From: Dehalococcoidia bacterium
Lineage (GTDB): Bacteria; Chloroflexota; Dehalococcoidia; GIF9; AB-539-J10
NCBI GenBank assembly: GCA_023128875.1
Contig: JAGMDB010000092.1
Location: 1 to 19,051, forward strand
Direction: 5' to 3'
DNA: 19,051 nucleotides
Shown here: in pieces, positions 3,063-16,849 of the stretch
How positions within the stretch are numbered: position 1 is the first letter of the stretch
Layout of the letters: every line of letters starts with the position of its first letter
The notes under the pieces: model-generated
What the model was told of the DNA's origin: nothing
The model's database searches: none
The model's input: the letters and a program-made list of their open reading frames with translations, nothing else
Translations under genes and position numbers: made by a program

Positions 3063-3881
3063 ATGGCTTTTAAATCACCTAAAGCTACAGTTGAAGCGAT
3101 TGATGCTGCCGGCTGTTCCAAGGCCGACCTGACGTGGGGCCAGTTACTAACCCTGGGGTTTTTGGCAGGGGCGTTTATAGCCTTTGGTGGGCTATTGGCG
3201 CTCGTGGTTGGTGGTGGCGTGCCAGCTATTAAAGCAGCAAATCCTGGATTACAAAAATTCATCTTTGGCGCTGTGTTCCCTGTCGGGTTGATACTTGTTG
3301 TAATCGCCGGCGCCGAATTATTCACAGGCAACTGTGCTTGTTGCATCCCAGCACTGCTGGCCAGAAAAGTAAAAAGGACTGCCTGTGCCAGGAATTGGGT
3401 GGTGTCTTACATCGGTAATTTCATAGGTTCACTCTTTGTGGCTTTCTTCTTAGTTTATCTAACCGGCCTATTAGCTAAAGACCCATGGTTGGCTAGTACC
3501 ATTGCCGTTGCTGAAGCAAAGGTATCCCAAGGTTTTTGGCCGCTCTTTCTCAAGGGTATCGGTTGTAACTGGCTGGTCTGCCTGTCAGTATGGCTCGCCG
3601 TTGCCTCAGAAGATACCATTGGCAAGGTCTGGGGCGTCTGGTTCCCGATTATGGCTTTCGTGGCTATTGGCTTTGAGCACAGTATCGCCAACATGTTCTT
3701 CATTCCAGTGGGCATCTTCTATGGCGCTGCGGTAACTTGGAGTCAGTTTTTCGTTACCAACCTTATTCCAGTTACCCTGGGAAACATTGTAGGCGGTGCT
3801 TTCTTTGTGGGTGGGGTTTACTGGTACGTCTACGGGGAGCGGCCTAACAAAGAGACTCGTACCATTCCACAGAAGAGTTAG
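3063..3881 (+). CDS. formate/nitrite transporter (FNT) family channel, FocA-like
   Basis: This is an integral membrane protein of 272 residues, the standard FNT length, with about six hydrophobic helices. Family landmarks are ELFTGN (residues 85-90), whose Thr88 matches the Omega-loop Thr91 of E. coli FocA, and GFEHSIANMFFIP (203-215), whose His206 matches the pore His209. CNWLVCL.VWL (168-177) and NLIPVTLGNIVGG (233-245) are also present. FNT pentamers pass formate, nitrite or hydrosulfide. With formate dehydrogenase genes on both sides, formate uptake or release is the likely role, but the hydrosulfide branch is not excluded. The ATG at 3063 follows AAGGAGG by 10 bases. A CACC cysteine cluster (91-94) directly after ELFTGN is unusual and echoes one in the preceding oxidoreductase. 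Confidence 0.9.
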   Translation: MAFKSPKATVEAIDAAGCSKADLTWGQLLTLGFLAGAFIAFGGLLALVVGGGVPAIKAANPGLQKFIFGAVFPVGLILVVIAGAELFTGNCACCIPALLARKVKRTACARNWVVSYIGNFIGSLFVAFFLVYLTGLLAKDPWLASTIAVAEAKVSQGFWPLFLKGIGCNWLVCLSVWLAVASEDTIGKVWGVWFPIMAFVAIGFEHSIANMFFIPVGIFYGAAVTWSQFFVTNLIPVTLGNIVGGAFFVGGVYWYVYGERPNKETRTIPQKS

Positions 3882-3974: not shown

Positions 3975-6668
3975 TTAACTTAGCTTTTCTATCTTTACCG
4001 CTGAGACTTTGAGCTCGGGAATTTTAGCCACAGGATCCAGAGCGTCGTTAGTTAAGAGATTTGCTGCTGATTCCCCGAAATGAAATGGCATAAAGACCTG
4101 GCCTGCATTCACCCGGTTAGTAAATTTTACTTTCACTTTGATCTCACCACGGCGCGAGTTTATCTTTACCCAATCGCTATCACTGACTTTCAATTTGTTG
4201 CCATCCTGTGGGTTCATTTCCAGAAATCCCTCTTTGACAAGGTTGTCTAATGCCCTCGCCCGTCGGGATAAAGACCCTGTGTGGAAATGTTGGAGAATTC
4301 TACCTGTGTTGAGCAAGAAGGGGTATTCTTCGTCTGGGAGTTCCGCAGGGGGTATGTAGTCTATAGGGCTAAAGAAGCCTTTTCCATTTGGCCTGGTGAA
4401 TTTATCTTTGTATAGATAAGCTGTGCCTGGGTGGTCACGACCTGGGCAGGGCCATTGCAAACCATTGTTACTGGCCAGTCGGTCATAATGAACTCCGCCA
4501 TAAATAGGGGTCAGGGATGCAATTTCATCCATCACTTCTGTAGGCGAATCATAATTCATTGGGTGCCCCATTCTTTGGCTTATTTCACATATGATCTTCC
4601 AGTCTTGATTACTTTGTCCAACTGCAGAAATAGCTTTACGGATACGCTGGATTCTGCGTCCAGTGTTAGTGAAGGTTCCATCTTTCTCAAAAGAGGTGAC
4701 ACCTGGCAAGACTACATCAGCCATTTGCGCTGTTTCTGTCAGGAAAACATCCTGGACTACCAGGAAATCTAGATTCCTTAATCCTTCTTTTACATGATTA
4801 AGGTTGGGGTCGCTTAGCATTGGGTTTTCACCCATTATGTAAAGCCCCTTGATTTTTCCTTTACTGGCTGCATCTACTATTTCTACTATGGTCAACCCTG
4901 CATCAGGAGAAAGCTCTGTCTTCCACGCTTTCTCAAATTTTTCTTTGATTTGAGGGTCGCTGACTTTCTGGTAGCCTGAATAGACATTGGGCAAAGCGCC
5001 TAAATCACAGGCGCCTTGAACATTACTTTGCCCTCGCAGGGGGTTAACACCGGTGCCCTCTCTCCCAATATTTCCGGTGAGCATAGCCAGGTTAGCCAGG
5101 GATTTAACATTGTCTGTGCCGGTGGTATGTTGTGTTATGCCCATTGCAAAAATGATCGAAGCTCTTCCTGCTTTCGCGTATAGCTTTGCTGCGGCGACCA
5201 GCTTATCATTGGGGATGCCTGTAATTTCTTCCACCTTTGCAGGAGTATATTTAGAAACCACTTTTTTAAGTTCCTGGAAATTCTCTGTGCGGTTCTGTAT
5301 AAATTCTTGATCATGTAGCCCCTCAGTTATGATTACATTCATTAGCCCATTGATCCAGGCAACGTCGCTTCCGCCTCTCTGCCTCATCCATACCTGGGCA
5401 TATTTTGCTATCTCTATCTGTCGGGGATCTACTACAATTAATTTCAAGTTACCATATGTTACGGAATGCTTGAGCAGGTCACCAATCACAGGGTGGGATT
5501 CAGTAGTATTAGATCCAGTTATCAGCACGACATCCGATTTCTCAAACTCACGAATTGAGTTAGTCATTGCACCACTACCAAAAGCCCAGGCAAGGCCTGC
5601 TACAGTAGATGCATGGCAGAGGCGAGCACAATGATCCACGTTGTTCGTGCCGAAACAGGAACGGACAAATTTTTGAAACAGGTAATTCTCCTCATTAGTG
5701 CATTTTGCTGATGAGAACCCAGCTAATGTATCGCTGCCATAGCTATTTTTTAATTCCCCAAACTTACTGGCAACCAAATCCAGGGCTTCGTCCCAAGTTG
5801 CCTGCTCGAATTTGCCATTTCGTTTAACCAATGGAGTGGTAAGGCGGTCGGGGTGGTTAACATAGTCGAGGCCAAAGCGCCCTTTAACGCAGGCGTGTCC
5901 CCTATTATCAGGCCCATCTTCAACTGCATAAACCTTTATGGGCTTGTTATCCTTGATATTCAATTCTAGCTGGCAGCCGACCCCACAATAAGGACATGTG
6001 GTCTGGATTTTCTGTAATTCCCAGTTCCTTCCCTGGAAGCGCGATGATTTCTCCGTTAGCGCTCCAGTGGGGCAAGCTTGGATGCAAGCTCCACACGAAG
6101 CACAATCAGTCTGGGCTATTGGCTCACTTGCTCCAGCACCTATGACTATTGCAGGACCGCGGCTTGTGAATTCCAGAATGTTCCGGCCTGCAATTTCTGC
6201 ACATGCGCGGACACAGCGCCCGCAAAGAATGCACCTGTTTGGATCTCTTCTAATTACCTCGCTGGAATCATCAATTGGTTTAATTTCTCTATTCATTGGG
6301 AAACGCACTTCATCGATGCCGAACTGGTAAATTAAATCCTGTAGCTCACAGTGTCCGTTGCTCTCGCAAGTCAGGCAATTGTGTTCATGCTCTGATAGAA
6401 TCATTTCCAAATTCAACCGGCGCAAGTCGTTGAGCTCCTCGTCTTCGGTTATAACTTCCATTCCATCAGCCACCACTGTACAGCATGAAGGTACAAGGCC
6501 TCGCATCCCCTTAACCTTAACCAGGCAAAGCCTGCAGGCTCCGACGGTGCTTAGCCCCTTCTTATAGCACAGGTGTGGGATTTTAAACCCGTTTTCCTCA
6601 CAAACATCTAGCAGATTAACCCCTTCTTCAACTTCACAAACCTTTTCATTAATGAGTATCTTCGCCAT
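3975..6668 (-). CDS. fdhA: NAD(P)-linked formate dehydrogenase, catalytic alpha subunit (Cys type) with NuoG-like N-terminus
   Basis: The 897-residue cytosolic subunit oxidises formate to CO2, or runs the reverse reaction, at a Mo/W bis-MGD centre. Domains in order: [2Fe-2S] ferredoxin domain (Cys 34, 45, 48, 62 or 63); NuoG-type HX3CX2CX5C cluster (His94, Cys98, 101, 107); two [4Fe-4S] clusters (Cys 146/149/152/156 and 189/192/195/199); molybdopterin oxidoreductase domain opening with its own [4Fe-4S] site (Cys 225, 228, 232, 260); C-terminal dinucleotide-binding domain. The catalytic position is Cys351 in NVDHCARLCHAS, encoded TGC, where many relatives use selenocysteine; His352 follows as expected. 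The ATG has AAAGGAG about 9 bases upstream. It is the last gene of the nuoE-nuoF/gltD-fdhA operon, 15 bases after its neighbour. The many Fe-S clusters would carry electrons to the NuoEF-like partners. MobA and FdhD nearby serve its cofactor. Confidence 0.95.
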   Translation of the reverse strand: MAKILINEKVCEVEEGVNLLDVCEENGFKIPHLCYKKGLSTVGACRLCLVKVKGMRGLVPSCCTVVADGMEVITEDEELNDLRRLNLEMILSEHEHNCLTCESNGHCELQDLIYQFGIDEVRFPMNREIKPIDDSSEVIRRDPNRCILCGRCVRACAEIAGRNILEFTSRGPAIVIGAGASEPIAQTDCASCGACIQACPTGALTEKSSRFQGRNWELQKIQTTCPYCGVGCQLELNIKDNKPIKVYAVEDGPDNRGHACVKGRFGLDYVNHPDRLTTPLVKRNGKFEQATWDEALDLVASKFGELKNSYGSDTLAGFSSAKCTNEENYLFQKFVRSCFGTNNVDHCARLCHASTVAGLAWAFGSGAMTNSIREFEKSDVVLITGSNTTESHPVIGDLLKHSVTYGNLKLIVVDPRQIEIAKYAQVWMRQRGGSDVAWINGLMNVIITEGLHDQEFIQNRTENFQELKKVVSKYTPAKVEEITGIPNDKLVAAAKLYAKAGRASIIFAMGITQHTTGTDNVKSLANLAMLTGNIGREGTGVNPLRGQSNVQGACDLGALPNVYSGYQKVSDPQIKEKFEKAWKTELSPDAGLTIVEIVDAASKGKIKGLYIMGENPMLSDPNLNHVKEGLRNLDFLVVQDVFLTETAQMADVVLPGVTSFEKDGTFTNTGRRIQRIRKAISAVGQSNQDWKIICEISQRMGHPMNYDSPTEVMDEIASLTPIYGGVHYDRLASNNGLQWPCPGRDHPGTAYLYKDKFTRPNGKGFFSPIDYIPPAELPDEEYPFLLNTGRILQHFHTGSLSRRARALDNLVKEGFLEMNPQDGNKLKVSDSDWVKINSRRGEIKVKVKFTNRVNAGQVFMPFHFGESAANLLTNDALDPVAKIPELKVSAVKIEKLS

Positions 6669-6683
6669 TTTAATATTGCTCCT

Positions 6684-9600
6684 TTAGCTTAATTCAGCAT
6701 CGCATCTGAGACATCTTTCTGCTTCTTCCATTGCCTCTTCCTTTGAATAGTTAGACGTGGTTTCTTGAAAGTTTGCAGTTCTTATTTCCACATCACTTTC
6801 TTTAATCTTCACTCGTGGTTTTTCCTGTGGATCTTCATCAGGTGCAAATGGAATTTGATATCTCTCATGGTCTTCTCTCTCTGGTATAGGACCTAAAGCT
6901 TCTCCTCTTAAGTACCTTTTAATTGAGGACACGGCTCGCTGTCCCGCGGCAACTGCGTCTATAACTGTAAGGGGTCCTGAGACTGCGTCTCCGCCAGCGA
7001 ATACGCCTTCCATATTGGTTGCTAGAGTCCTTTGGTCTACTACTATAGTTCTATTTTTGGCTAGCTTTATCTTGTCATCATCCAGGAAATCGCTTTCTGG
7101 GAATTGGCCAATTGATTCTATGACTGCATCGGCCTCGATTACGTATTCAGCGCCTTCGATTTTATAGGGTTTTTTCCTCCCGCTTCTATCAAATTCCCTG
7201 AGTTCCATCCTGGCACATTTCACCTTGCTGACTTTGCCGTCTCCCATAATTCCAATCGGAATGCTAAGGCAATCTATTTTAATACCCTCTTGTTCAGCGG
7301 CTTCAATATCTTCCTCTATCGCGGGCATATCTTTTCTCTCTCTTCTGTACACTATCCTCACATCCGCTCCCATTCTTTTTGCTACCCGTGCGCAATCCAT
7401 TGCACTATTTCCCCCTCCGATTACAATGACGCTTTTCCCAAGCTCTACTTGTTTGCCTAAGTTTGCGTTGCGTAGAAATTCTACTCCCCAATAGACTCCC
7501 TCCAAATTTTCTCCTGGAATATCCATTTTTCTCTCACCGTGAGCTCCGATAGCCAGGAATACTGCTTTAAATCCTTTACTAAACAAACCTTCGATAGTTT
7601 CGATGTGGGTATTTAGCTTAATTTCAACCCCCATTTTCTTTATCTGCTCTATTTCATAATTAAGGATACTATTTGGCAATCTGTATTCTGGAATGCCCAC
7701 GGCGAGCATCCCCCCGGCAGCTGGCAAGGCCTCAAAAATAGTAACCCTGTAGCCATCTATTACCAGGTCGTAAGCAGCCGAGAGTCCTGCAGGGCCAGAA
7801 CCCACAATGGCGATTCTTTCATCTCTCATCTGCTTTGACTGAGGGTTATACTCAAAATGATTCGCGTAAGCGTAATCAGCCACGAACCGTTTTATATGCC
7901 TGATTGCTATTGGCTCATCCAGATTTCCCCTCTCGCACTTAGATTCGCAGGGGTGATTACATACTCTTCCTAATACAAGAGGAAGGGGATTTGTCTGTCT
8001 GATTACTTTGTAGGCTTCTTCAAACTTGCCTTCTTTTACCAATGCTAGGTAGGTAGGTGCATCTTGATTTACGGGGCAAGCGTTCTGGCATTTAGTTCTA
8101 AATAAGGCAGCGCAAATGCCAGCAGGACATACTTTGTCAATTATATGTGCCTCGTATTCATCTCTGAAATGGCGAATAGTGCTTAAAGTGGGGTTGGCAG
8201 CAGTTTGCCCTAATGCGCACAGCGCTGTTTTTTCGATGCCTTTTGCCAGATTTTCCAAGGCTTCCAGGTCTTCTATTTTTCCTTTGCCTTCTGTTATCTT
8301 GGTCAAAGTATCTATCATTAATGGAAGCCCTCTGCGACAGGGAAGGCACTTCCCGCAGGATTCATCCTTATCAAATTCCAGGAAAAACCTCGCTGTATCC
8401 ACCATGCAAGAATCCTCATCTAAGACAACCATGCCGCCAGAACCCATCATGGAGCCGATTTCTTTAAGAGATTCGTAGTCTATAGACATGTTCAGGTATT
8501 CGGCAGGAACGCAGCCACCTGAAGGGCCGCCTAACTGAACTGCCTTGAATTTCTTCCCATTGAGAATTCCTCCACCAATATCAAAAACTACTTCACCAAG
8601 GCTGATTCCCATTGGGACTTCAATTAAGCCGGTGTTATTTATCTTGCCAGTCAGGGAAAATACCTTTGTGCCTTTAGTGCCTTCTGTTCCAACTGAACTC
8701 CACCAGGATGCACCATTGCGAATGATAAGAGGTATATTGGATAAGGTCCCAACATTGTTTATCACGGTAGGCTTTCCAAACAAGCCTTCGTTTGCTGGGA
8801 AGGGAGGTCTTGGTCTGGGGTTCCCCCTTTTTTGTTCTAACGATGCTAATAGAGCAGTCTCTTCCCCACATACAAACGCTCCAGAGCCAAGGAAAAGCTC
8901 GATATCAAAATTGAAATCAGTGCTAAAGATATTTTGCCCTAAGAATCCATATTTCCTTGCTTGATCAAGTGCTACTTTTAGAGTCTCCACCGCAAGCGGA
9001 TATTCAGCTCTAACATATATGTATCCTTTGCTGGCACCAATCGCGTATCCAGCGATGGCCATCCCTTCTAAAACTGCGTGTGGATTTCCCTCCAGTTCAG
9101 ATCTGTTCATGTAAGCGCCGGGGTCGCCTTCATCAGCATTACAGACTATATACTTCTGATTCCCTTTGGCTTTGAATGCGAAACTCCACTTAACCCCTGT
9201 AGGGAAACCAGCCCCACCTCTTCCTCTCAACCCGGATTTCTTAACCTCTTCGATAACTTCTTCCTGCCCCATTTGCAAAGCTTTTCCTAGAGCAAAATAG
9301 CCTTCACTTGCGATATAATCCTCAATTATCATCGGGTCAATCAAACCATTGTTATGCAAAACTCTTCTAGTTTGTTTGGCATAGAAATCCATGTCGTACA
9401 GTGAAACAACCTTTCGTTTTTTCACTGGATCGAAAAACAACAGCCTCTCCACTATCTCTTTATTGATGACATGTTTTTGGATAATCTCCTCTATATCCTT
9501 GCCCTGTACACGGGTGTACAGAGTGCCACCTGGATGAATAACAACTATGGGCCCTTTTTCACAGAGCCCCTGGCATCCTGTAGGTACAACTTCTACTTTG

Positions 9601-9803
9601 TCCTGGAGATTATGTTTTTTAATGACTCTGTCAAAAATTTTATAGAGATTTTCTTCCCCTGCAGAAGCAATACACCCACTTCCCCTGCACATCATGATAC
9701 TGATCTTCCGTGTATCGTCTTTTGTTAAGGGGCGCCTATCCATGCGTCTGTCCAATTTCGGCTTGTATTCGTCTCTTATTTTTATCAGTTCTTCAATGTT
9801 CAT
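6684..9803 (-). CDS. NuoF-GltD fusion: NADH dehydrogenase (HydB/HndC-like) subunit fused to glutamate synthase small-subunit-like oxidoreductase
   Basis: A single 1039-residue frame joins two enzymes. N-terminal half: thioredoxin-like [2Fe-2S] domain (Cys 39, 44, 77, 81), then the NuoF core with FMN/NAD-binding GLRGRGGAGFPTG (191-203), CNADEGDPGAYMNR (221-234), GSGAFVCGEETAL (306-318) and a [4Fe-4S] site (Cys 483, 486, 489, 529). C-terminal half, from about 555: GltD-type cysteines (including 572, 576, 615, 619, 623), FAD-binding IAIVGSGPAGLSAAYDL (664-680), NAD(P)H-binding VIVIGGGNSAMDC (about 792-804) followed by VYRRER (818-823), and a terminal CLRC (1031-1034). The bacterial-ferredoxin tail usual in HydB is replaced by GltD. 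Role inferred: electron exchange between FdhA and NAD(H), with a second flavin for NADP(H) or ferredoxin. It starts 9 bases after nuoE, with an AAGGTGA ribosome site. Confidence 0.9.
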   Translation of the reverse strand: MNIEELIKIRDEYKPKLDRRMDRRPLTKDDTRKISIMMCRGSGCIASAGEENLYKIFDRVIKKHNLQDKVEVVPTGCQGLCEKGPIVVIHPGGTLYTRVQGKDIEEIIQKHVINKEIVERLLFFDPVKKRKVVSLYDMDFYAKQTRRVLHNNGLIDPMIIEDYIASEGYFALGKALQMGQEEVIEEVKKSGLRGRGGAGFPTGVKWSFAFKAKGNQKYIVCNADEGDPGAYMNRSELEGNPHAVLEGMAIAGYAIGASKGYIYVRAEYPLAVETLKVALDQARKYGFLGQNIFSTDFNFDIELFLGSGAFVCGEETALLASLEQKRGNPRPRPPFPANEGLFGKPTVINNVGTLSNIPLIIRNGASWWSSVGTEGTKGTKVFSLTGKINNTGLIEVPMGISLGEVVFDIGGGILNGKKFKAVQLGGPSGGCVPAEYLNMSIDYESLKEIGSMMGSGGMVVLDEDSCMVDTARFFLEFDKDESCGKCLPCRRGLPLMIDTLTKITEGKGKIEDLEALENLAKGIEKTALCALGQTAANPTLSTIRHFRDEYEAHIIDKVCPAGICAALFRTKCQNACPVNQDAPTYLALVKEGKFEEAYKVIRQTNPLPLVLGRVCNHPCESKCERGNLDEPIAIRHIKRFVADYAYANHFEYNPQSKQMRDERIAIVGSGPAGLSAAYDLVIDGYRVTIFEALPAAGGMLAVGIPEYRLPNSILNYEIEQIKKMGVEIKLNTHIETIEGLFSKGFKAVFLAIGAHGERKMDIPGENLEGVYWGVEFLRNANLGKQVELGKSVIVIGGGNSAMDCARVAKRMGADVRIVYRRERKDMPAIEEDIEAAEQEGIKIDCLSIPIGIMGDGKVSKVKCARMELREFDRSGRKKPYKIEGAEYVIEADAVIESIGQFPESDFLDDDKIKLAKNRTIVVDQRTLATNMEGVFAGGDAVSGPLTVIDAVAAGQRAVSSIKRYLRGEALGPIPEREDHERYQIPFAPDEDPQEKPRVKIKESDVEIRTANFQETTSNYSKEEAMEEAERCLRCDAELS

Positions 9804-9812
9804 AGTTTCACC

Positions 9813-10292
9813 TTAGTTATATTTCTCCAATACCTCTTTTACTTTTGCTGGTTTCATCCTTCCGTAAACTTTACCGTCCACAGTTATCACTGGCCCAATT
9901 GCGCAACACCCCAAACACCTGATTACCTCCAGCGAAAATCTCCTGTCGACAGTGGTTTGCCCTGGTTCTACTTTGTATTTCTTTCTTATTTCACCTAAAA
10001 TATCCTTGGCGCCTCTAACATAACAGGCAGTTCCCATGCAGGCAGTTACGCTATGTTTTCCTGGAGGAAATAACCTGAAGAAATTATAAAAACTCACAAT
10101 TCCGTATACTTTACTTATGGGTACATTTAATCTGTCTGCAATTAGCTTCTGCCCTTCCAGTGGGACATACCTAAGCTGGCTCTGTATTTCCTGTAATACT
10201 TTCACTAACTGGCCCGGATTCTCTCTGTTACTCTTGATGATGTTGTCGATTGTTGCGATCTCATCTTTTGTCAATGCGCTAACTTTCTCCAA
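9813..10292 (-). CDS. NuoE/HydC-like [2Fe-2S] subunit of the formate dehydrogenase complex
   Basis: The 159-residue protein has the NuoE (24-kDa) thioredoxin-like fold signature: a helical N-terminus, VPISKVYGIVSFYNFF (57-72), and the [2Fe-2S] ligands CX4C (Cys85, Cys90) and CX3C (Cys126, Cys130 in RCLGCCAIGP). Its length is normal. It starts with TTG, supported by a strong AGGAGGT five bases upstream. It is the first gene of the leftward operon, followed after 9 bases by the NuoF-GltD gene. In related soluble hydrogenases and formate dehydrogenases this subunit pairs with the NuoF subunit and takes part in electron transfer near FMN. Here it is expected to be part of a cytosolic NuoE/NuoF-GltD/FdhA complex. 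Confidence 0.93.
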   Translation of the reverse strand: MEKVSALTKDEIATIDNIIKSNRENPGQLVKVLQEIQSQLRYVPLEGQKLIADRLNVPISKVYGIVSFYNFFRLFPPGKHSVTACMGTACYVRGAKDILGEIRKKYKVEPGQTTVDRRFSLEVIRCLGCCAIGPVITVDGKVYGRMKPAKVKEVLEKYN

Positions 10293-10548: not shown

Positions 10549-11253
10549 ATGGCAGAATTAGCAACGGTTGAAATACAAAGAGTATCAAATCAACATGGGA
10601 AAGTTGACTCGGATGCAGTCATTTTTGAGGCTAAAGTTCTTCTTATGCTCAATGGCAAGAGCTACAAGTCGTTCTATTGTTTACCAACTTACCTAGAGGA
10701 GATGGTCCGGGGATATCTAATCTCTGAGGGAGTATGCAGCCTATGTGACATAAAGGGTATAAAAGCTAGGCCACATGGGGAGAGATTTGTGGTTGAAGCT
10801 GTCATTAACAGCCGCAACATAAAACTGGATGAAATCAAATCAGCGATAAAGATAAGTATAGCTGATATCTGGGCAGCAGCAGAGAAGCTCAATGAATCCA
10901 GTATTCTATTCAGGGAGACCGGAGGCACTCATGTCGCCGGGATACTCAACAGGCGTGATTCAGTCTTTGCTGAGGATATAAGCAGGCACTGCGCCATAGA
11001 TAAGTCCCTTGGCCTTGCATTCCAGAAAGATATGAGCATTGCTAGGAGTGTACTAATAGTATCATGTAGGCAGACAGCATCAACGATCAGTAAAGCAATC
11101 TATAGCCGAATCCCTATAGTGGTAAGTACCTCAGCCGTTACCGGCCTGGCTATAAAGAGTGCACGGCAGTATGGCATAACCCTTATCGGATTTGCTAGAG
11201 AACACAGATTCAATATTTATTCTCATAAAGAAAGAGTCATCGGGAGCGGCTAG
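10549..11253 (+). CDS. fdhD: FdhD-family formate dehydrogenase accessory protein, lacking the cysteine loop
   Basis: FdhD passes sulfur from a cysteine desulfurase to the Mo/W-bis-MGD cofactor of formate dehydrogenase. The family frame is clear: LLMLNGKSYKSF.CLP..LEEMVRGYLISEGV (from about residue 31), TGGTHVAG (about 123-130), EDISRHCAIDKSLG (about 143-156), a VLIVSCR segment, VVSTSAVTGLA and TLIGFAR...FNIYSH near the end. At 234 residues it is about 25 shorter than usual. The missing part is the mid-protein segment that holds the CGxCG-type sulfur-carrying cysteines; none occur between residue 67 and the TGG motif. A CSLC pair sits earlier, at 63-66, where relatives have none that I recall. 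It is either a divergent FdhD with relocated chemistry or an impaired one. The ATG at 10549 follows AGGAGA. The gene is divergent from the formate dehydrogenase operon and 42 bases ahead of mobA. Confidence 0.85.
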   Translation: MAELATVEIQRVSNQHGKVDSDAVIFEAKVLLMLNGKSYKSFYCLPTYLEEMVRGYLISEGVCSLCDIKGIKARPHGERFVVEAVINSRNIKLDEIKSAIKISIADIWAAAEKLNESSILFRETGGTHVAGILNRRDSVFAEDISRHCAIDKSLGLAFQKDMSIARSVLIVSCRQTASTISKAIYSRIPIVVSTSAVTGLAIKSARQYGITLIGFAREHRFNIYSHKERVIGSG

Positions 11254-11295
11254 CCCGGGTATGAACCTAATCGATAGATTCTTCAGGTATGCGGG

Positions 11296-11892
11296 ATGGT
11301 GACATCAATTGTCCTTGCTGGTGGGAAAAGCCTGCGGCTGGGCAGGTGTAAAGCAATGGAGACTATCTGCGGCCAGAGCCTGGTCAAGCGTGCTATCGAA
11401 AGGCTGAAGACAATGAGCAACCAGATTCTGATAGTAACCTCTCAAGAGCAGCCTGACCTTCCAATCACTCGTGAGGCAGAAATTGTAGAAGATATTTATC
11501 CTGGCAAGGGGCCTCTGGGGGGTATATATACAGGACTGCTTGCTTCTGAGCTTCCCTATAGTATCGTTGTTGCCTGTGATATGCCTTTCCTTAATGTTGA
11601 GCTATTGCGTTATCTGATTGAATTATCCGAGGGCTTTGATGCTGTTATCCCCCGATTAGAAGAGGGGAAAATTGAGCCTCTCCACGCTGTATATTCACGG
11701 AAGTGCATAAATACAATAAGAGCAGAATTGGAGTGTGATCACTTGAAGATCAGCCAAGCGCTTGACATTCTGCGTGTCAGGTATGTCGAGCGGGAGGAAT
11801 ATCACAGATTTGACCCTCAGCTTTTAAGCTTTTTCAATATAAATTCCCTAGCGGATTTGAAACAAGCCGCTGCGATTGCCATGAAGGAGTAG
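11296..11892 (+). CDS. mobA: molybdenum cofactor guanylyltransferase
   Basis: The 198-residue protein has the MobA nucleotidyltransferase signature at its N-terminus: IVLAGGKSLRLGRCKA (residues 5-20), equivalent to LAGGxSxRMGxxK. The Mg-binding VVACDMPFL block lies at about 92-100. MobA joins GMP to molybdopterin to give the dinucleotide form that FdhA binds. Position between fdhD and hypF and next to formate dehydrogenase fits this role. Where many family members have Asp before the P-loop-like Lys, this one has Cys (RCK), a small oddity. Related MobA-like cytidylyltransferases cannot be wholly excluded, but bis-MGD demand from FdhA favours guanylylation. The ribosome site before ATG 11296 is weak (CAGG/CGGG). 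Confidence 0.85.
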   Translation: MVTSIVLAGGKSLRLGRCKAMETICGQSLVKRAIERLKTMSNQILIVTSQEQPDLPITREAEIVEDIYPGKGPLGGIYTGLLASELPYSIVVACDMPFLNVELLRYLIELSEGFDAVIPRLEEGKIEPLHAVYSRKCINTIRAELECDHLKISQALDILRVRYVEREEYHRFDPQLLSFFNINSLADLKQAAAIAMKE

Positions 11893-12024: not shown

Positions 12025-14403
12025 ATGAGGCATAAGTTACGTATGGCTAAAACAAAAAATCCGCGGCTTGCTCATATCAGCGTTCGTGGTGTAGTTCAAG
12101 GAGTAGGCTTTAGGCCCTTTGTCTACGGGCTAGCAATTAAGCACGATTTAAAGGGATGGGTATACAACACCTCCGAGGATGTTAAGATTGAGGTAGAAGG
12201 GAAAAGTGAGGCCGTCAAACAGTTTCAATTAGAGCTTAAGACAAAAGCTCCTCCCCTAGCTCATATCGAAGATACAACCACTACCTACCGCCATCCCATT
12301 GGCTATAAAAAGTTTGAGATCCGCCATAGCGTTGCTGTGGAGGGAAAATACCAGCTTATCTCTCCAGATATTGCTACCTGCCAGACTTGTTTAAGTGAAC
12401 TGCTAAATCCCAATGATAGACGCTATCGTTATCCTTTTACTAACTGCACTAACTGTGGGCCACGCTTCACCATAATTGAGAGCATGCCTTATGACCGCCC
12501 AAAAACTACCATGCACCATTTTCACATGTGCCCCCAATGCCAGGCTGAGTATGATAATCCTTTAGACCGCCGTTTCCACGCTCAACCAAACGCCTGCCCG
12601 AAATGTGGCCCCCGGGTTAAGCTGGTCGATGCACAGGGTAAGGAAGCTGTTGCACAGAAAGCAAAGCAAGCCCACTCAGATGCCATAGCCATTGCCAGCC
12701 AGCTTCTAAAGGAAGGAAAAATTATTGCCATCAAAGGACTGGGGGGATTCCTCTTGGCTTGCGATGCCACTAATGAATGGGCGGTTAACACATTGCGCCA
12801 CAGGAAAAAACGCTCCTCTAAACCATTCGCCATAATGGTATCCGACATAGACGAGGCTAAAAGGCATTGCTACGTCTCACCAAGTGAGGAGAAATTACTC
12901 ACCTCCACAGAAAACCCCATTGTACTTACAAAGTGGAAAAGTGATTCATCTGTATCGCGTGAGGTAGCTCCAAATTTAGAATATCTAGGAGTCATGCTGC
13001 CTTATACGCCGTTGCATCACACTCTGCTTAGAGACACTCAATTGCCATTAGTGATGACCAGTGGCAACCTAAGTGAAGAGCCCATTGCTAAGGATAACGA
13101 TGAAGCTTTGAGAAGGCTCTCGGGAATCGCCGATTATTTCCTGATTCATAATCGGGATATTTATTCCCGCTATGATGACAGCGTAGCCATGGTGGAAAAG
13201 GAAACGTGCCAGCTTGTGAGGCGAGCTCGCAGCTATGCTCCCTACCCCATCACCCTGCCTTTTAAGGCTAAACAAGTGCTTGGCTGTGGCGCTGCAATGA
13301 AGAACACGTTTTGCCTGACTAAAGACAGCTATGCTTTCCTGAGCCAGCACATTGGAGATTTGGAAAACTGGGAGACTATGGAGCATTTCATTGACACCAT
13401 CTCCCTTTACAAAAGACTATTTCACATCAAACCTGATTTAATTGCCTGCGACCTTCACCCTGATTACCTTTCCACTAAATACGCTCAAGAACTGGGGAGA
13501 GCCTTCGCCAACGGTCAGGACAGCGTTGGGATAAAACTCATTCCCGTGCAGCATCATCACGCCCACATTGCTAGCTGCATGGCAGACAACGGGTTAGAAG
13601 CCTCAGTTATAGGAGTTGTCTTTGATGGAACAGGATTGGGCAGTGATGGGCATATCTGGGGAGGAGAATTCCTGGTGGCTGACTATCAAAGTTTTAGTAG
13701 GATGGGACATCTGGAGTATCTACCTTTGCCCGGAGGAGATGCGGCGATAGAAAGGCCTTACCGCACTGCCATCGCCTATGTTCTTAGCCTTCTGGGAGAA
13801 AATGCGCTGAGTGGACTGGCTTTTGCGGAACAAGTTAACGAGGTTGAAATCAGTATTATTAAGCGCCAAATCGAAACGAGGCTGAATTCACCATTAAGTT
13901 CAAGCATGGGGCGCCTGTTTGATGCTGTATCAGCACTGATAGGTATAAGAGATAGAATAGATTATGAAGGACAAGCGGCTGTAGAGTTAGAAATGGCTGC
14001 CTATCCTTGTGATGGCCAGAAGCACAACGAGGAAGCAACTTCTGAGCAAAACTACCCATACCACATAATGGAGGATAAAGGGGTGAGGCTCATAAAGCTA
14101 GACGACCTTCTCTCAGCAATAATCGGAGATTTAAGCCAGGGCATGCCTCAAGGTAGAATATCCATTAAATTCCACAACACCGTGGCTCAGATGACAAACG
14201 AGATGTGCCAGCTAATAACTAATGAAACCAGCATTAAGCGAGTGGCTTTAAGTGGTGGCGTATTCCAAAATCGGTTACTGCTCAGAAAGACAATTAACTT
14301 ACTGGAAAACAATGGTTTCCAAGTATTTACCCATAGGCAAGCGCCCTGTAATGATGGTGGTATCGCCTTAGGGCAGGCAGTTATTGCCAATTTCGCTGAA
14401 TAA
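12025..14403 (+). CDS. hypF: [NiFe] hydrogenase maturation carbamoyltransferase
   Basis: HypF converts carbamoyl phosphate and ATP to a carbamoyl adenylate and moves the carbamoyl group to the C-terminal Cys of HypE, the source of the cyanide ligands. All domains are present in 792 residues. The acylphosphatase domain contains VRGVVQGVGFRPFVYGLA (20-37). Two zinc fingers follow (Cys 119/122/141/144 and 169/172/191/194). The YrdC-like domain has IAIKGLGGFLLACDA and later VMTSGNLSEEPI. The Kae1-like domain has CDLHPDYLSTKYA, HHHAHIASC near 510, GVVFDGTGLG, VALSGGVFQNRLL and CNDGGIALGQA. ATG 12025 lacks a clear ribosome site; ATG 12043, with GAGG 11 bases upstream, would remove six residues and keep all motifs. 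A 132-bp gap separates it from mobA with no clear promoter. Confidence 0.96.
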   Translation: MRHKLRMAKTKNPRLAHISVRGVVQGVGFRPFVYGLAIKHDLKGWVYNTSEDVKIEVEGKSEAVKQFQLELKTKAPPLAHIEDTTTTYRHPIGYKKFEIRHSVAVEGKYQLISPDIATCQTCLSELLNPNDRRYRYPFTNCTNCGPRFTIIESMPYDRPKTTMHHFHMCPQCQAEYDNPLDRRFHAQPNACPKCGPRVKLVDAQGKEAVAQKAKQAHSDAIAIASQLLKEGKIIAIKGLGGFLLACDATNEWAVNTLRHRKKRSSKPFAIMVSDIDEAKRHCYVSPSEEKLLTSTENPIVLTKWKSDSSVSREVAPNLEYLGVMLPYTPLHHTLLRDTQLPLVMTSGNLSEEPIAKDNDEALRRLSGIADYFLIHNRDIYSRYDDSVAMVEKETCQLVRRARSYAPYPITLPFKAKQVLGCGAAMKNTFCLTKDSYAFLSQHIGDLENWETMEHFIDTISLYKRLFHIKPDLIACDLHPDYLSTKYAQELGRAFANGQDSVGIKLIPVQHHHAHIASCMADNGLEASVIGVVFDGTGLGSDGHIWGGEFLVADYQSFSRMGHLEYLPLPGGDAAIERPYRTAIAYVLSLLGENALSGLAFAEQVNEVEISIIKRQIETRLNSPLSSSMGRLFDAVSALIGIRDRIDYEGQAAVELEMAAYPCDGQKHNEEATSEQNYPYHIMEDKGVRLIKLDDLLSAIIGDLSQGMPQGRISIKFHNTVAQMTNEMCQLITNETSIKRVALSGGVFQNRLLLRKTINLLENNGFQVFTHRQAPCNDGGIALGQAVIANFAE

Positions 14404-14501
14404 ACTCCCAAGACAAGAGCAAGGAACCCCAAACCATAATCCCTGCTAGCCCGAAGTTGCGTCCTATCAAATACCATGACAACAGCACAAGGTTGGTACG
14501 G

Positions 14502-14530
14502 TTGTATTGTTCAGTAAGATTAGCTAAAAT
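14502..14530 (+). promoter_or_regulatory. possible promoter immediately before hypC
   Basis: TTGTAT (14502-14507), a 17-bp spacer and TAAAAT (14525-14530) resemble a sigma70 promoter. The start would be near 14537, only about 7 bases before the hypC ATG, giving a nearly leaderless message. It may be chance in an AT-rich gap. Confidence 0.25.
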
Positions 14531-14543
14531 GACCAACAAAGTT

Positions 14544-14774
14544 ATGTGTCTTGCAGTGCCAGTAAGAGTTATCTCCAAAGAAGGTGACGCGGCGGAAACA
14601 GAGATCGCCGGGGTGAGACGCTTGGTTAGCATTGCCCTAACCCCGGAAGTAAAAGTGGGAGATTATGTGTTGCTCCACACGGGTTATGCCATAGGCATTG
14701 TAGATGAAGCGGAAGCCAAGGAAACCTTAAAGCTCCTGGAGGAAATAGTAAGCCTCAGTGAAGCTCATCGATGA
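14544..14774 (+). CDS. hypC: [NiFe] hydrogenase maturation chaperone HypC
   Basis: The 76-residue protein of the HypC/HupF family begins MCLAVPVRV. After removal of Met the N-terminal Cys2 binds iron and the partner HypD, so the start must be the ATG at 14544. The in-frame ATG at 14529 and earlier starts would bury the Cys and are rejected, even though no strong ribosome site precedes 14544. The middle part matches the family fold: AGVRRLVSIALTPEVKVGDYVLLHTGYAIGIVD-like beta barrel (residues 22-54), then a helical tail ending LLEEIV. HypC shuttles the Fe(CN)2CO unit between HypCD and the hydrogenase large subunit. Its last 17 bases overlap the start of hypD, implying coupled translation and the usual HypC:HypD stoichiometry. 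Confidence 0.92.
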   Translation: MCLAVPVRVISKEGDAAETEIAGVRRLVSIALTPEVKVGDYVLLHTGYAIGIVDEAEAKETLKLLEEIVSLSEAHR

Positions 14775-15852
14775 GTACCAAAATAGCGCACTAGCTAGAA
14801 AACTGGCCATCAGAATCGCTAATCGCTCCGCTAAGCCGATCAGGTTAATGGAATTCTGTGGTGGACATACTCATGCCATAATGAGATATGGAATCCGCCA
14901 ATTATTGCCTGAGACGGTGGAAATGAGAGCAGGGCCAGGTTGCCCTGTATGTGTTACAGCAACTGCTGATTTGGATAAAGCTATTGCCATGGCTCACTTA
15001 GCCGGTGTCATCATCACCACTTTCGGGGACATGATGAGAGTTCCTGGCAGCCACTCCAGCCTACAGCAAACAAGGGCTGAAGGAGCAGATATACGAGTTA
15101 TCTATTCCGCTATGGATGCTGTGGAAATAGCCAGAAGCAACCCACAAAAATCGGTCATCCTCATAGGCATCGGCTTTGAAACCACAGCACCAACCATAGC
15201 TGCCTCTACAATCAAAGCACAGAAAGAAGGCATTGAAAATTTCTATGTCCTTTCCCTGCTCAAATTAAGCCCGCCGGTGATGAAGGCGATACTGGAGCTT
15301 GGCGAGGTAAGGCTAGACGGCATTATCTGCCCTGGACATGTCAGCGTTATAATCGGCTCCTATCCCTATGAATTTATCCCCAAGAACCATAATGTTGGCT
15401 GTGTTATCTCGGGCTTTGAACCTTTAGATATCTTGCTATGCATAGACAGACTGGTGGAACAAATTGAAAGCGGCCAGCCAAAAGTGGAAATAGCGTATCG
15501 CCGTGGAGTAAAGCCTGAAGGCAACGAAAAAGCCTTAGAATTGATGGGGGAGGTTTTTGAAATTGCTCAAGCTAACTGGCGGGGAATCGGGGTTGTGCCT
15601 CAAAGCGGCTTAAGGGTTAGCCAAAAATATGAGCATTTTGATGCTGACAATCTCTTTCGGCTAAACTTGAAACCTACCGGGGAGCCTAAAGGGTGTCGTT
15701 GTGGCGAGATACTCCGTGGCATAGCCACACCTCCTGAGTGTGGACTTTTCGGCAAGGTTTGCACTCCAGAGAAGCCTATAGGTCCTTGCATGGTCTCAAG
15801 CGAAGGCGCTTGCGCTGCTTATTATAAATATGGTGGGATAAGCTATGAGTGA
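14758..15852 (+). CDS. hypD: [NiFe] hydrogenase maturation protein HypD
   Basis: HypD is the 364-residue scaffold with a [4Fe-4S] cluster on which, together with HypC, the Fe(CN)2CO group is assembled. It shows FCGGHTHAIMRYG (33-45), GPGCPVC (59-65), TTFGDMMRVPGS (87-98) and GFETTAPT, the three conserved HypD blocks. The C-terminal cysteine-rich cluster has Cys 313, 315, 328, 335, 344 and 352. It uses a GTG start at 14758; translation from there gives the family N-terminus MKLIDEYQ, and no other in-frame start precedes the first motif. A GGAGG sequence lies 15 bases upstream, rather far, so coupling to hypC translation probably helps. It overlaps hypE by 8 bases. Confidence 0.96.
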   Translation: MKLIDEYQNSALARKLAIRIANRSAKPIRLMEFCGGHTHAIMRYGIRQLLPETVEMRAGPGCPVCVTATADLDKAIAMAHLAGVIITTFGDMMRVPGSHSSLQQTRAEGADIRVIYSAMDAVEIARSNPQKSVILIGIGFETTAPTIAASTIKAQKEGIENFYVLSLLKLSPPVMKAILELGEVRLDGIICPGHVSVIIGSYPYEFIPKNHNVGCVISGFEPLDILLCIDRLVEQIESGQPKVEIAYRRGVKPEGNEKALELMGEVFEIAQANWRGIGVVPQSGLRVSQKYEHFDADNLFRLNLKPTGEPKGCRCGEILRGIATPPECGLFGKVCTPEKPIGPCMVSSEGACAAYYKYGGISYE

Positions 15853-16849
15853 TAATGTTCTTTTGGCCCATGGCAGCGGTGGCAAGCTCAGCCATGATTT
15901 GATTGAGAAAAAATTACTTCCACCTCTGGCTAATCCTATGTTAAATCGATTAGATGACTCAGCTATTTTTGAATTTAGCGGACATCTTGCCTTTACCACC
16001 GATAGCTATGTAGTTAACCCTATTTTCTTCCCTGGTGGAGATATAGGCAAGCTGGCTATTTGTGGCACAGTTAACGATTTATCCATGAACGGAGCAAAGC
16101 CTCTATACTTGAGCCTGTCTCTGATTTTAGAAGAGGGTTTCTCCTTAAGCGAACTTGACCGCATAGTTGGGTCGATAAAGGCAGCCGCTGAAGAAGCCGA
16201 AGTACGTATAGTCACCGGGGATACCAAGGTAGTAAATCAGGGACAGGCTGACAAGCTATTTATCAATACCTCAGGGATAGGAGCAATTCCTCTGGGAATT
16301 GATATTTCAGGAGCCAATGCCCGAGCAGGAAATAAAATCATCCTGAGTGGCACTATTGGCGATCATGGTATAGCTGTAATGTGTCAGCGTGAAGGATTGA
16401 AGTTCTCCACTCCTGTACAAAGCGATTGTGCTCCGTTAAACAAACTGGTATCTCAAATGCTAAAATCATCACCAAGAATCCATTGCCTCCGTGACCCTAC
16501 CAGAGGTGGGTTAGCTACTGTGCTTAACGAGTTTACTCAGCAATCAAATGTAGGTATCGTGTTAGAAGAGGATAAGATACCAATGAAGGAAAGTGTCAAG
16601 GCTGCCTGTGAGCTTTTGGGCTTCGACCCCCTTTATTTAGCCAATGAGGGTAAGCTGGTAGCTATAGCCGAGCCAGGCGACGCTGGTAAGATTTTAGCTG
16701 AAATGCAGCAAAATATCTACGGCAGAGATGCAGCCATCATCGGCGAGGTGAGCAATGCTCACCCTGGAAGGGTAATCATGAAAACAAAACTGGGGCCCTC
16801 CCGAGTTGTTGATATGCTCTCCGGGGAGCTATTACCAAGGATATGCTAG
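15845..16849 (+). CDS. hypE: [NiFe] hydrogenase maturation protein HypE
   Basis: HypE dehydrates the thiocarboxamide on its C-terminal Cys to thiocyanate and donates CN to iron on HypCD. The 334-residue protein is of the AIR-synthase (PurM) fold, with LLAHGSGGKL (6-15), FTTDSYVVNPIFFPGGDIGK (about 50-69), CGTVNDLSMNGA (about 73-84), VTGDTKVV and RDPTRGGLATVLNE. It ends in PRIC, with the essential terminal Cys334 as the last residue, so the end is intact. It starts 8 bases inside hypD. The next gene, NAD kinase, begins 10 bases after its stop, so the hyp operon runs on into nucleotide-metabolism genes. Confidence 0.97.
   Translation: MSDNVLLAHGSGGKLSHDLIEKKLLPPLANPMLNRLDDSAIFEFSGHLAFTTDSYVVNPIFFPGGDIGKLAICGTVNDLSMNGAKPLYLSLSLILEEGFSLSELDRIVGSIKAAAEEAEVRIVTGDTKVVNQGQADKLFINTSGIGAIPLGIDISGANARAGNKIILSGTIGDHGIAVMCQREGLKFSTPVQSDCAPLNKLVSQMLKSSPRIHCLRDPTRGGLATVLNEFTQQSNVGIVLEEDKIPMKESVKAACELLGFDPLYLANEGKLVAIAEPGDAGKILAEMQQNIYGRDAAIIGEVSNAHPGRVIMKTKLGPSRVVDMLSGELLPRIC

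Follow-up and report, generated by a model that had tools for sequence, protein, structure and literature searches.

Which electron carriers would serve a formate dehydrogenase (FDH) whose NuoF subunit carries a GltD-like flavoprotein module at the place where bifurcating enzymes carry a ferredoxin-type tail? The question is raised by three genes on a contig of 19,051 nucleotides from a Dehalococcoidia bacterium (contig C177 of a genome of 999 kb in 184 contigs, 68% complete); the contig in its full length is called the window below. A preliminary description, made from the letters alone, had placed nuoE, nuoF-gltD, and fdhA at positions 3975–10292, and this set was borne out: the three open reading frames (ORFs) on the minus strand are all open and stop-free, with spacers of 9 bases between nuoE and nuoF-gltD and 15 bases between nuoF-gltD and fdhA (Table 1). 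Their domain content best fits a soluble, Bfu-type (HydABC-like) FDH that uses molybdenum or tungsten. With about even confidence, we propose that this enzyme couples formate or CO2 to nicotinamide adenine dinucleotide, NAD(H), at the flavin mononucleotide (FMN) of the NuoF half and to its phosphate, NADP(H), or perhaps ferredoxin, at the GltD half.

Architecture of the three subunits

In the Pfam comparison, the N-terminal half of the 1039-residue fusion matched the Nuo51 FMN domain (PF01512, 152.6 bits), the NADH_4Fe-4S domain (PF10589, 107.5 bits), and, slightly below the cut-off of 24.8 bits, a thioredoxin-like [2Fe-2S] domain (24.3 bits). The SLBB domain (PF10531) scored 19.9 bits at a cut-off of 27, and the GGPSG motif of bifurcating forms is present. 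These Pfam families we take to be the counterparts of the InterPro domains of the Bfu family. The closest solved relatives of this half are the HydB subunits of A. mobile (743.8 bits) and A. woodii (742.9 bits), with T. thermophilus Nqo1 at 388 bits. The matches to HydB-type chains stop at residues 568–574, and those to the GltD chains of Stn and Nfn enzymes start at residues 569–571. The ligands of the B2 cluster (C466, T504, H553, C559, and C564) correspond to C438, C476 (often Thr), H525, C531, and C536 of A. mobile HydB and include the histidine that is described, in the ligand list of PMC9304861, as absent from non-bifurcating homologues. Bifurcating-type beta subunits are reported to possess Ala or Glu at position 232 and Met at position 234 of T. 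maritima HydB, together with GGPSG in SLBB (PMC7311640); A230, M232, and GGPSG of the fusion were matched to these by motif rather than through a printed T. maritima alignment. A NuoE-like (BfuC) subunit is encoded alongside. In its domains and ligands, the NuoF half is HydB/BfuB-like save for the missing ferredoxin tail, and an ordinary complex-I NuoF is ruled out by the HydB-type best matches, the B2 ligands, and A230/M232.

The absence of the tail, noted in the preliminary description, was confirmed: no ordinary Fer4 ferredoxin domain was found among the 18 Pfam families matched in the fusion, and the tail of the genome's own HydB gave no match to it. In PMC9304861, BfuB is defined by four domains, one of them of the ferredoxin type (the 4Fe-4S domain IPR017896, with clusters B3/B4). 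The fusion lacks this domain, and NuoF-GltD fusions would thus fall outside that survey, the main text of which does not contain the word GltD.

The GltD half takes the place of the tail, starting 8 residues past the last B2 ligand, and matched Fer4_20 and Pyr_redox_2 in Pfam. Residues for flavin adenine dinucleotide (FAD), the NADP phosphate, and the Fe-S clusters are present on alignment, K638 aligns with StnC K170, and the arginines are as at the NADP 2′-phosphate site discussed in PMC8965080. No flavin- or nucleotide-binding residue was found to be lost from this half, and the two halves together predict, as first suggested, two flavins and two nucleotide sites in the complex. The CLRC pair is C-terminal here and N-terminal in NfnL, indicating that the GltD half is circularly permuted as in StnC; it resembles Stn-type GltD more closely than NfnL. 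The AlphaFold model of the fusion (mean predicted local distance difference test, pLDDT, 86.8; predicted template-modelling score, pTM, 0.82), on which two HydB-type chains extend to model residue 627–628, hints that the GltD Fe-S domain sits where the HydB tail sits, for which the overlay ranges alone are insufficient. NfnB is reported to have Glu at the StnC K170 position (PMC10482914). The window has K638 there, and the 73 fused rows compared have Lys in 60, His in 10, and Arg, Ser, and a gap in one each. Since Lys replaces the Glu ligand and the FAD of StnC is reported to be non-bifurcating, bifurcation at the GltD FAD as in NfnB is disfavoured.

The third subunit, FdhA, scored 901 bits with the TIGR01591 Fdh-alpha model (cut-off 666) and possesses a NuoG-like N-terminus with Fe-S domains in Pfam. 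Its active-site motif HCARLCH is intact, and C351-H352 identifies it as a Cys enzyme. Named relatives among the 120 matches listed include Deltaproteobacteria (93%), Candidatus Aerophobetes (68 and 72%), Dehalococcoidia/Dehalococcoidales (66–69%), and Latescibacteria (66%).

Every one of these domains is already known; what appears to be new is the NuoF-GltD combination, which predicts a testable change of electron carrier. No published description of such a fusion was found in the literature searched, the coverage of which was partial and took in few subscription journals. The predicted type 1 Fdh-Bfu complexes (e.g., of Carboxydothermus hydrogenoformans, PMC9304861) likewise cluster NuoE, a HydB-type NuoF, and an FdhA with a NuoG-like N-terminus, and a locus of Alkaliphilus serpentinus (L074) displays this layout in the gene order of the window and with TGA as the active-site codon. 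However, BfuB of type 1 Fdh-Bfu ends in a ferredoxin tail, at the place of the GltD module in the window. HylABC-FdhF2 of C. acidurici also combines an FDH with a bifurcating core of the NuoE/NuoF type, but it is reported to have four subunits, to be specific for ferredoxin and NAD, and to possess two extra 4Fe-4S sites in HylB (PMC5736913, PMC5861303). The Stn/NfnABC complexes (S. ovata StnABC, 8oh5; C. saccharolyticus, 9bov) share the BfuBC core, the circularly permuted GltD, and the Lys at the K170 position; in contrast to the window, they bear GltD in the NuoG-like subunit, a ferredoxin tail on StnB, and an inactive FdhF domain. With GltD on NuoF, no tail, and HCARLCH intact, the window enzyme does not belong to Stn.

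The FDH of Moorella thermoacetica, reported to be NADP-dependent (PMC5736913, PMC6288185), offers a further comparison. The draft genome of strain DSM 21394 encodes a 710-residue FdhB-like protein (L091), consisting of a NuoF remnant and GltD, beside the start of a broken-off fdhA; from its domain make-up it is presumably the FdhB of the NADP-dependent enzyme. As in the window, FdhA is accompanied by a GltD-type module for FAD and NADP that has CLRC at its C-terminus. Unlike the window protein, to which it is 38% identical over the aligned part, the FdhB-like protein retains the B1 part of NuoF only, without the FMN domain, the thioredoxin-like domain, and the B2 ligands, and no NuoE was seen within the 3.8 kb read, whereas the window has GltD on a complete HydB-like NuoF, plus NuoE. 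A tail-bearing NuoF lies beside another apparent fdhA start in this genome, broken off at the contig end.

Related arrangements have been reported elsewhere. HydDB sorts [FeFe] hydrogenases by the GltD or NuoF domains of the downstream gene (PMC5037454), Stn-like clusters adjoin an FDH gene in Dehalobacteriia (PMC10327494), gltD, nuo, and met genes are named in the legend to a figure of gene neighbourhoods of the Wood-Ljungdahl pathway (PMC7325909), and the ANME-1 HdrA with an NfnB-like insertion (PMC9012536) is a parallel case in another bifurcating family.

Spread, partners, and descent of the fusion

Fused and separate forms were surveyed in a sample, in that a pattern scan retained the best 80 of 590 matches, ranked by likeness to the query. 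The 73 fused ORFs used for residue counts comprise 56 from the scan (pattern CN[AG]DEGDP), 16 from a pattern-free protein search, and the window itself; L089, a duplicate of the M. thermoacetica locus L011, raises the number to 74 in the other counts. Seven further fusions from the pattern-free search bring its yield to 23 in all. Rows with less than 85% NuoF coverage were dropped (L024, L028, and L117), and 26 loci were left out of the counts (L001, L002, L007, L092, L093, and L095–L115), most of which are shorter copies of other loci or are without NuoF; they include fusions of six relatives (L099, L102, L103, L104, L109, and L115). The left-out rows that were checked possess the B1 and B2 ligands (10/10) and no tail, and L097 is the same gene as L117.

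Among 108 NuoF ORFs of the counted loci covering at least 85% of the core, 74 are fused to GltD, 28 are ferredoxin-tailed, six have neither extension, and none has both. The fusion, which recurs with several catalytic partners, is neither unique nor rare. One of the six ORFs with neither extension (L004) is broken off at its contig end and nearly duplicates a tail-bearing NuoF. Relatives 93, 88, and 85% identical span 97–100% of the fusion protein (among the 120 matches listed). Since such full-length relatives occur in other data sets, the fusion is not an accident of assembly, and an artefact is likewise ruled out by its frequency. By depositor titles, the fused loci belong to Chloroflexota, Deltaproteobacteria/Desulfobacterales, Firmicutes including M. 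thermoacetica, Bacteroidales, Spirochaetes, Actinomycetota, Acidobacteria, Omnitrophota, Planctomycetota, Atribacteria, and others. The genome of the window itself contains a second NuoF-GltD paralogue (L116:2-2020, G000:C137), 58% identical and broken off at the contig start, the NuoF half of which groups with [NiFe]-linked fusions.

The B1 ligands, the B2 ligands C466, H553, C559, and C564, A230, and M232 are present in all 73 fused ORFs, and GGPSG in 70. Position 504 is Thr in 47, Cys in 13, Ser in nine, and Val and Ala in two each. The thioredoxin-domain cysteines C77 and C81 are found in 73/73, and C39 and C44 in 52/73 and 50/73, respectively. The seven further fusions all retain the B1 and B2 ligands, and the six that cover the region have A230/M232. 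The NuoF paralogues with neither tail nor GltD have Thr and Lys at positions 230/232 in five of six cases, the sixth being a truncated tail-bearing form.

Catalytic partners were assigned on the same strand within 2.5 kb of each of the 74 fused ORFs. The partner is an [FeFe]-hydrogenase HydA in 21 cases (including the duplicate L089), the N-terminus of NuoG only in 15, a lower-identity FDH-like protein in 11, a NuoG-like protein in nine, and a close FDH in four; no partner was recognised for 14, several of which are broken off at contig ends. The four close-FDH loci (the window, L017, L037, and L130) all retain HCARLCH, as does L117, the truncated fusion of which lies outside the count. In contrast, the active-site Cys and His are absent from all 11 lower-identity proteins, i.e., dead FDHs. 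MetV directly follows the fusion in nine of these 11 loci, with MetF visible behind it in seven; the remaining two loci are on contigs that break off within the fusion. The compact order of L122:3712-11522, namely an active-site-less FDH-like protein, NuoE, NuoF-GltD, MetV, and MetF, recurs in L015, L016, and L125–L128; L019 and L129 show MetV only, and L021 has the order fusion-MetV-MetF with the upstream part missing. From its gene content, the L122-type locus is a candidate NADH/NADPH-linked methylene-tetrahydrofolate (THF) reductase complex.

In eight of the nine NuoG-like cases, the exception being L014, genes for the small and large subunits of a [NiFe] hydrogenase lie downstream. These loci, with NuoE, NuoF-GltD, a NuoG-like protein, and both subunits (L118–L121, L123, L124, L134, and L029), look like relatives of the NiFe HydABCSL hydrogenase without the tail. 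Several [FeFe]-hydrogenase operons (L010, L022, L030, L031, and L061) contain two NuoF proteins, one a bifurcating-type fusion and the other a non-bifurcating-type NuoF with Thr and Lys at the diagnostic sites. The FDH cluster L131:692-10241 (G016) unites both kinds of BfuB: NuoE, NuoF-GltD, a second NuoE, a tail-bearing NuoF, a NuoG-N-like protein, and a live FdhA, 74% identical to that of the window in the catalytic part, with a formate/nitrite channel (FNT) beyond.

The descent of the fusion was examined by two quick tree searches with the SH-like approximate likelihood-ratio test (SH-aLRT) only. Fused and tail-bearing forms are intermixed in the tree of 107 NuoF cores, with eight label changes, at least four of them forced by starred branches, which speaks against a single origin of the fusion. 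The four FDH-linked fusions occupy four separate places. Eight of the dead-FDH fusions have L130, whose FDH is live, as their sister, and the remaining three group elsewhere. In L124, the NuoF half falls within the [NiFe] group and the GltD half within the MetVF group, indicating that halves have probably been exchanged. In the GltD tree (77 rows), the "other" label takes in truncated fusions, and its count of changes is thus not meaningful.

Electron path and alternative readings

By analogy with characterized complexes, we infer the following electron path, carriers, coupling, and direction. Formate would be oxidised, or CO2 reduced, in FdhA, and the electrons would pass through its NuoG-like Fe-S chain and B1 to the FMN of the NuoF half, where NAD(H) would react. 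FMN, NuoE (cluster C1), and B2 would form the electron-splitting core, as in HydABC and Stn. The second branch, which in HydB runs from B2 to two [4Fe-4S] clusters of the ferredoxin tail, would here run from B2 through two GltD [4Fe-4S] clusters and FAD to NADP(H), by analogy with StnABC, and ferredoxin may dock at the GltD clusters. Work on StnABC assigns bifurcation to FMN together with clusters B2 and A1; ferredoxin is placed at the C-terminus of StnB, and the FAD of the GltD domain is described as non-bifurcating (PMC10482914). The predicted net reaction is 2 formate + NAD+ + NADP+ <-> 2 CO2 + NADH + NADPH.

Several points weigh against this proposal. With reported potentials of −432 mV for CO2/formate and about −370 mV for NADPH (PMC6288185), and of about −280 mV for NADH (PMC9304861), the mean of the NADH and NADPH potentials is −325 mV, and formate oxidation releases, by our own arithmetic, about 20.6 kJ per mol. 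Oxidation is thus downhill to NAD and NADP, and bifurcation is not needed in that direction; coupling could matter mainly in reverse, with NADPH helping NADH electrons onto CO2 at low formate. The scan pattern adjoins A230/M232, which biases the count of these residues, and the partial retention of C39/C44 means that the B5 cluster is not universal.

The strongest point against a pure exchange of ferredoxin for NADP comes from M. thermoacetica, and it is the reason why we hold our confidence at an even level. Strain DSM 21394 (L011; genome G001) encodes a 1011-residue NuoF-GltD fusion beside HydA; the architecture is that of the window, with HydA replacing FdhA and the best segment 54% identical. 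The only full-length HydA match in the draft genome adjoins this fusion; of the other matches, one ORF is 33% identical over residues 148–406 and the rest are confined to the N-terminal Fe-S part. The HydABC purified from M. thermoacetica is described, in the title of its report, as dependent on ferredoxin and NAD. If it is the fused enzyme, ferredoxin is usable without a HydB tail. A review gives the size of M. thermoacetica HydB as about 65 kDa, a poor fit to the 1011-residue fusion.

An alternative reading, to us doubtful, is that the GltD half is a ferredoxin port of an FDH bifurcating between ferredoxin and NAD. Ferredoxin would dock near its distal [4Fe-4S] cluster, NADP(H) serving as an additional or regulatory outlet. 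Both the HydABC title and the position of the M. thermoacetica HydA gene next to the fusion point to ferredoxin use; for NfnB, the most probable place of ferredoxin is reported to be close to the distal cluster in its GltD-like subunit (PMC5861303). On the other hand, none of the 74 fused ORFs possesses a ferredoxin tail, and related genomes keep separate tail-bearing complexes (e.g., L133, a Stn-like cluster, and L146, with the NuoF of the second FDH cluster), which would make a second ferredoxin-dependent version partly redundant.

We consider it unlikely that the reactions of NAD+ at FMN and of NADP+ at FAD are independent of each other and involve no bifurcation, in an enzyme comparable to the M. 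thermoacetica NADP-dependent FDH plus an NAD diaphorase. From the FdhB-like remnant, it appears that an FDH can be served by GltD in the absence of the FMN domain, the thioredoxin domain, and the B2 ligands, and coupling is not forced by thermodynamics; however, the B2 ligands lost from that remnant are kept in all fusions examined. A merely structural or regulatory GltD half in a strictly NAD+-dependent enzyme is very improbable, since almost every sampled fusion retains the FAD/NADP residues and the cluster cysteines.

Genomic surroundings and implications

Further genes of the window are given in Table 1. In a congener (G002, L117), the fusion, fdhA, and FNT are found in the identical order. 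The genes hypF, hypC, hypD, and a hypE-like gene (positions 12025–16849) adjoin the FDH genes, as would be expected for a [NiFe] hydrogenase encoded elsewhere in the genome. The preliminary description had also taken a neighbouring NAD kinase gene as a hint to the function of the enzyme; it overlaps the end of the hyp cluster and says little on the FDH, and this argument was dropped.

Table 1. Features of the window, with the evidence for each assignment
Feature	Positions	Strand	Evidence
nuoE/BfuC subunit, 159 residues, [2Fe-2S] thioredoxin-like (C1 cluster)	9813..10292	-	Pfam PF01257, 160 bits; top PDB matches: HydC chains of bifurcating hydrogenases
NuoF-GltD fusion, 1039 residues	6684..9803	-	Pfam, PDB-chain matches, AlphaFold model
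Thioredoxin-like [2Fe-2S] N-terminal domain, residues 31–110, B5 type (C39, C44, C77, C81)	9474..9713	-	Pfam and alignment
FMN/NAD(H) domain, residues 187–358, with bifurcating-type A230 and M232	8730..9245	-	Pfam; criteria reported in PMC7311640
NADH_4Fe-4S domain, residues 469–553; B1 ligands C483, C486, C489, C529	8145..8399	-	Pfam and alignment
B2-cluster ligands H553, C559, C564 (upstream: C466, T504)	8112..8147	-	A. mobile HydB alignment; ligand list reported in PMC9304861
GltD-type [4Fe-4S] domain, residues 563–648 (C572, C576, C615, C619, C623, K638)	7860..8117	-	Pfam and alignment
FAD and NADP(H) Rossmann domains, residues 663–954; R708 aligned with StnC R239	6942..7817	-	Pfam and alignment
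Y819-R820-R821, predicted NADP 2′-phosphate site	7341..7349	-	Aligned with YRR of NfnL and StnC
C-terminal CLRC (C1031, C1034)	6702..6713	-	Alignment; 9bov_A overlay extends to residue 1039
fdhA, NuoG-type N-terminal Fe-S region and molybdopterin FDH catalytic domain, 897 residues	3975..6668	-	TIGR01591, Pfam, PDB matches
FDH active-site C351-H352 (Cys, not selenocysteine)	5613..5618	-	PDB matches, motif comparison
FNT formate/nitrite channel, convergent with fdhA	3063..3881	+	Pfam
fdhD and mobA, FDH sulfurtransferase and Mo-cofactor maturation	10549..11892	+	Domain models
Second FdhA, C-terminal part, broken off at contig start	168..1229	+	Domain models; congener orthologue 90% identical

Positions 168–2851 of the window form a second FdhA region, the congener orthologue of which lies in a different FDH cluster (L146:76-10673, G002). 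This cluster encodes NuoE, a ferredoxin-tailed NuoF, a 1090-residue protein, FlpD/MvhD, an Fe-S protein, FdhA, and a CoA-disulfide-reductase-like protein. The 1090-residue protein begins like NuoG-N and, in Pfam, has Fe-S domains on either side of a flavin domain, from which we presume it to be HdrA-like, and the complex possibly contains two bifurcation sites. An ordinary ferredoxin-type bifurcating FDH was rejected for this second enzyme in view of the Fe-S domains at both ends of the flavoprotein and FlpD.

The preliminary description had suggested a link to the Wood-Ljungdahl pathway. Contig C120 of the same genome contains CdhC/AcsB, carbon monoxide dehydrogenase (CODH)-type (prismane family), and CdhD-type genes. 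Formyltetrahydrofolate synthetase (FTHFS) was not found above the cut-off in this 68%-complete genome and is present in both congeners. The CODH/acetyl-CoA synthase genes and the FTHFS of the congeners make the link plausible.

Tentatively, the partners suggest that NuoE and NuoF-GltD form a plug-in module in which NADP(H) replaces ferredoxin as the low-potential partner of the Bfu core, and which may have been combined repeatedly with FDHs, [FeFe] and [NiFe] hydrogenases, and, via a dead FDH, MetVF. If so, there would be bifurcating enzymes that are free of ferredoxin, including a methylene-THF reductase making NADPH from NADH. If NADP(H) indeed sits at the place that ferredoxin occupies in HydABC, the needs of electron splitting at FMN, B2, and C1 would be separable from the choice of the low-potential carrier. 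Coupling of formate to both nucleotides would offer a way to regenerate NADH and NADPH together at the expense of formate. It would also change the redox accounting in acetogens and their relatives, in which NADH and NADPH would be balanced within the formate or H2 enzyme rather than by Nfn, Stn, or Rnf.

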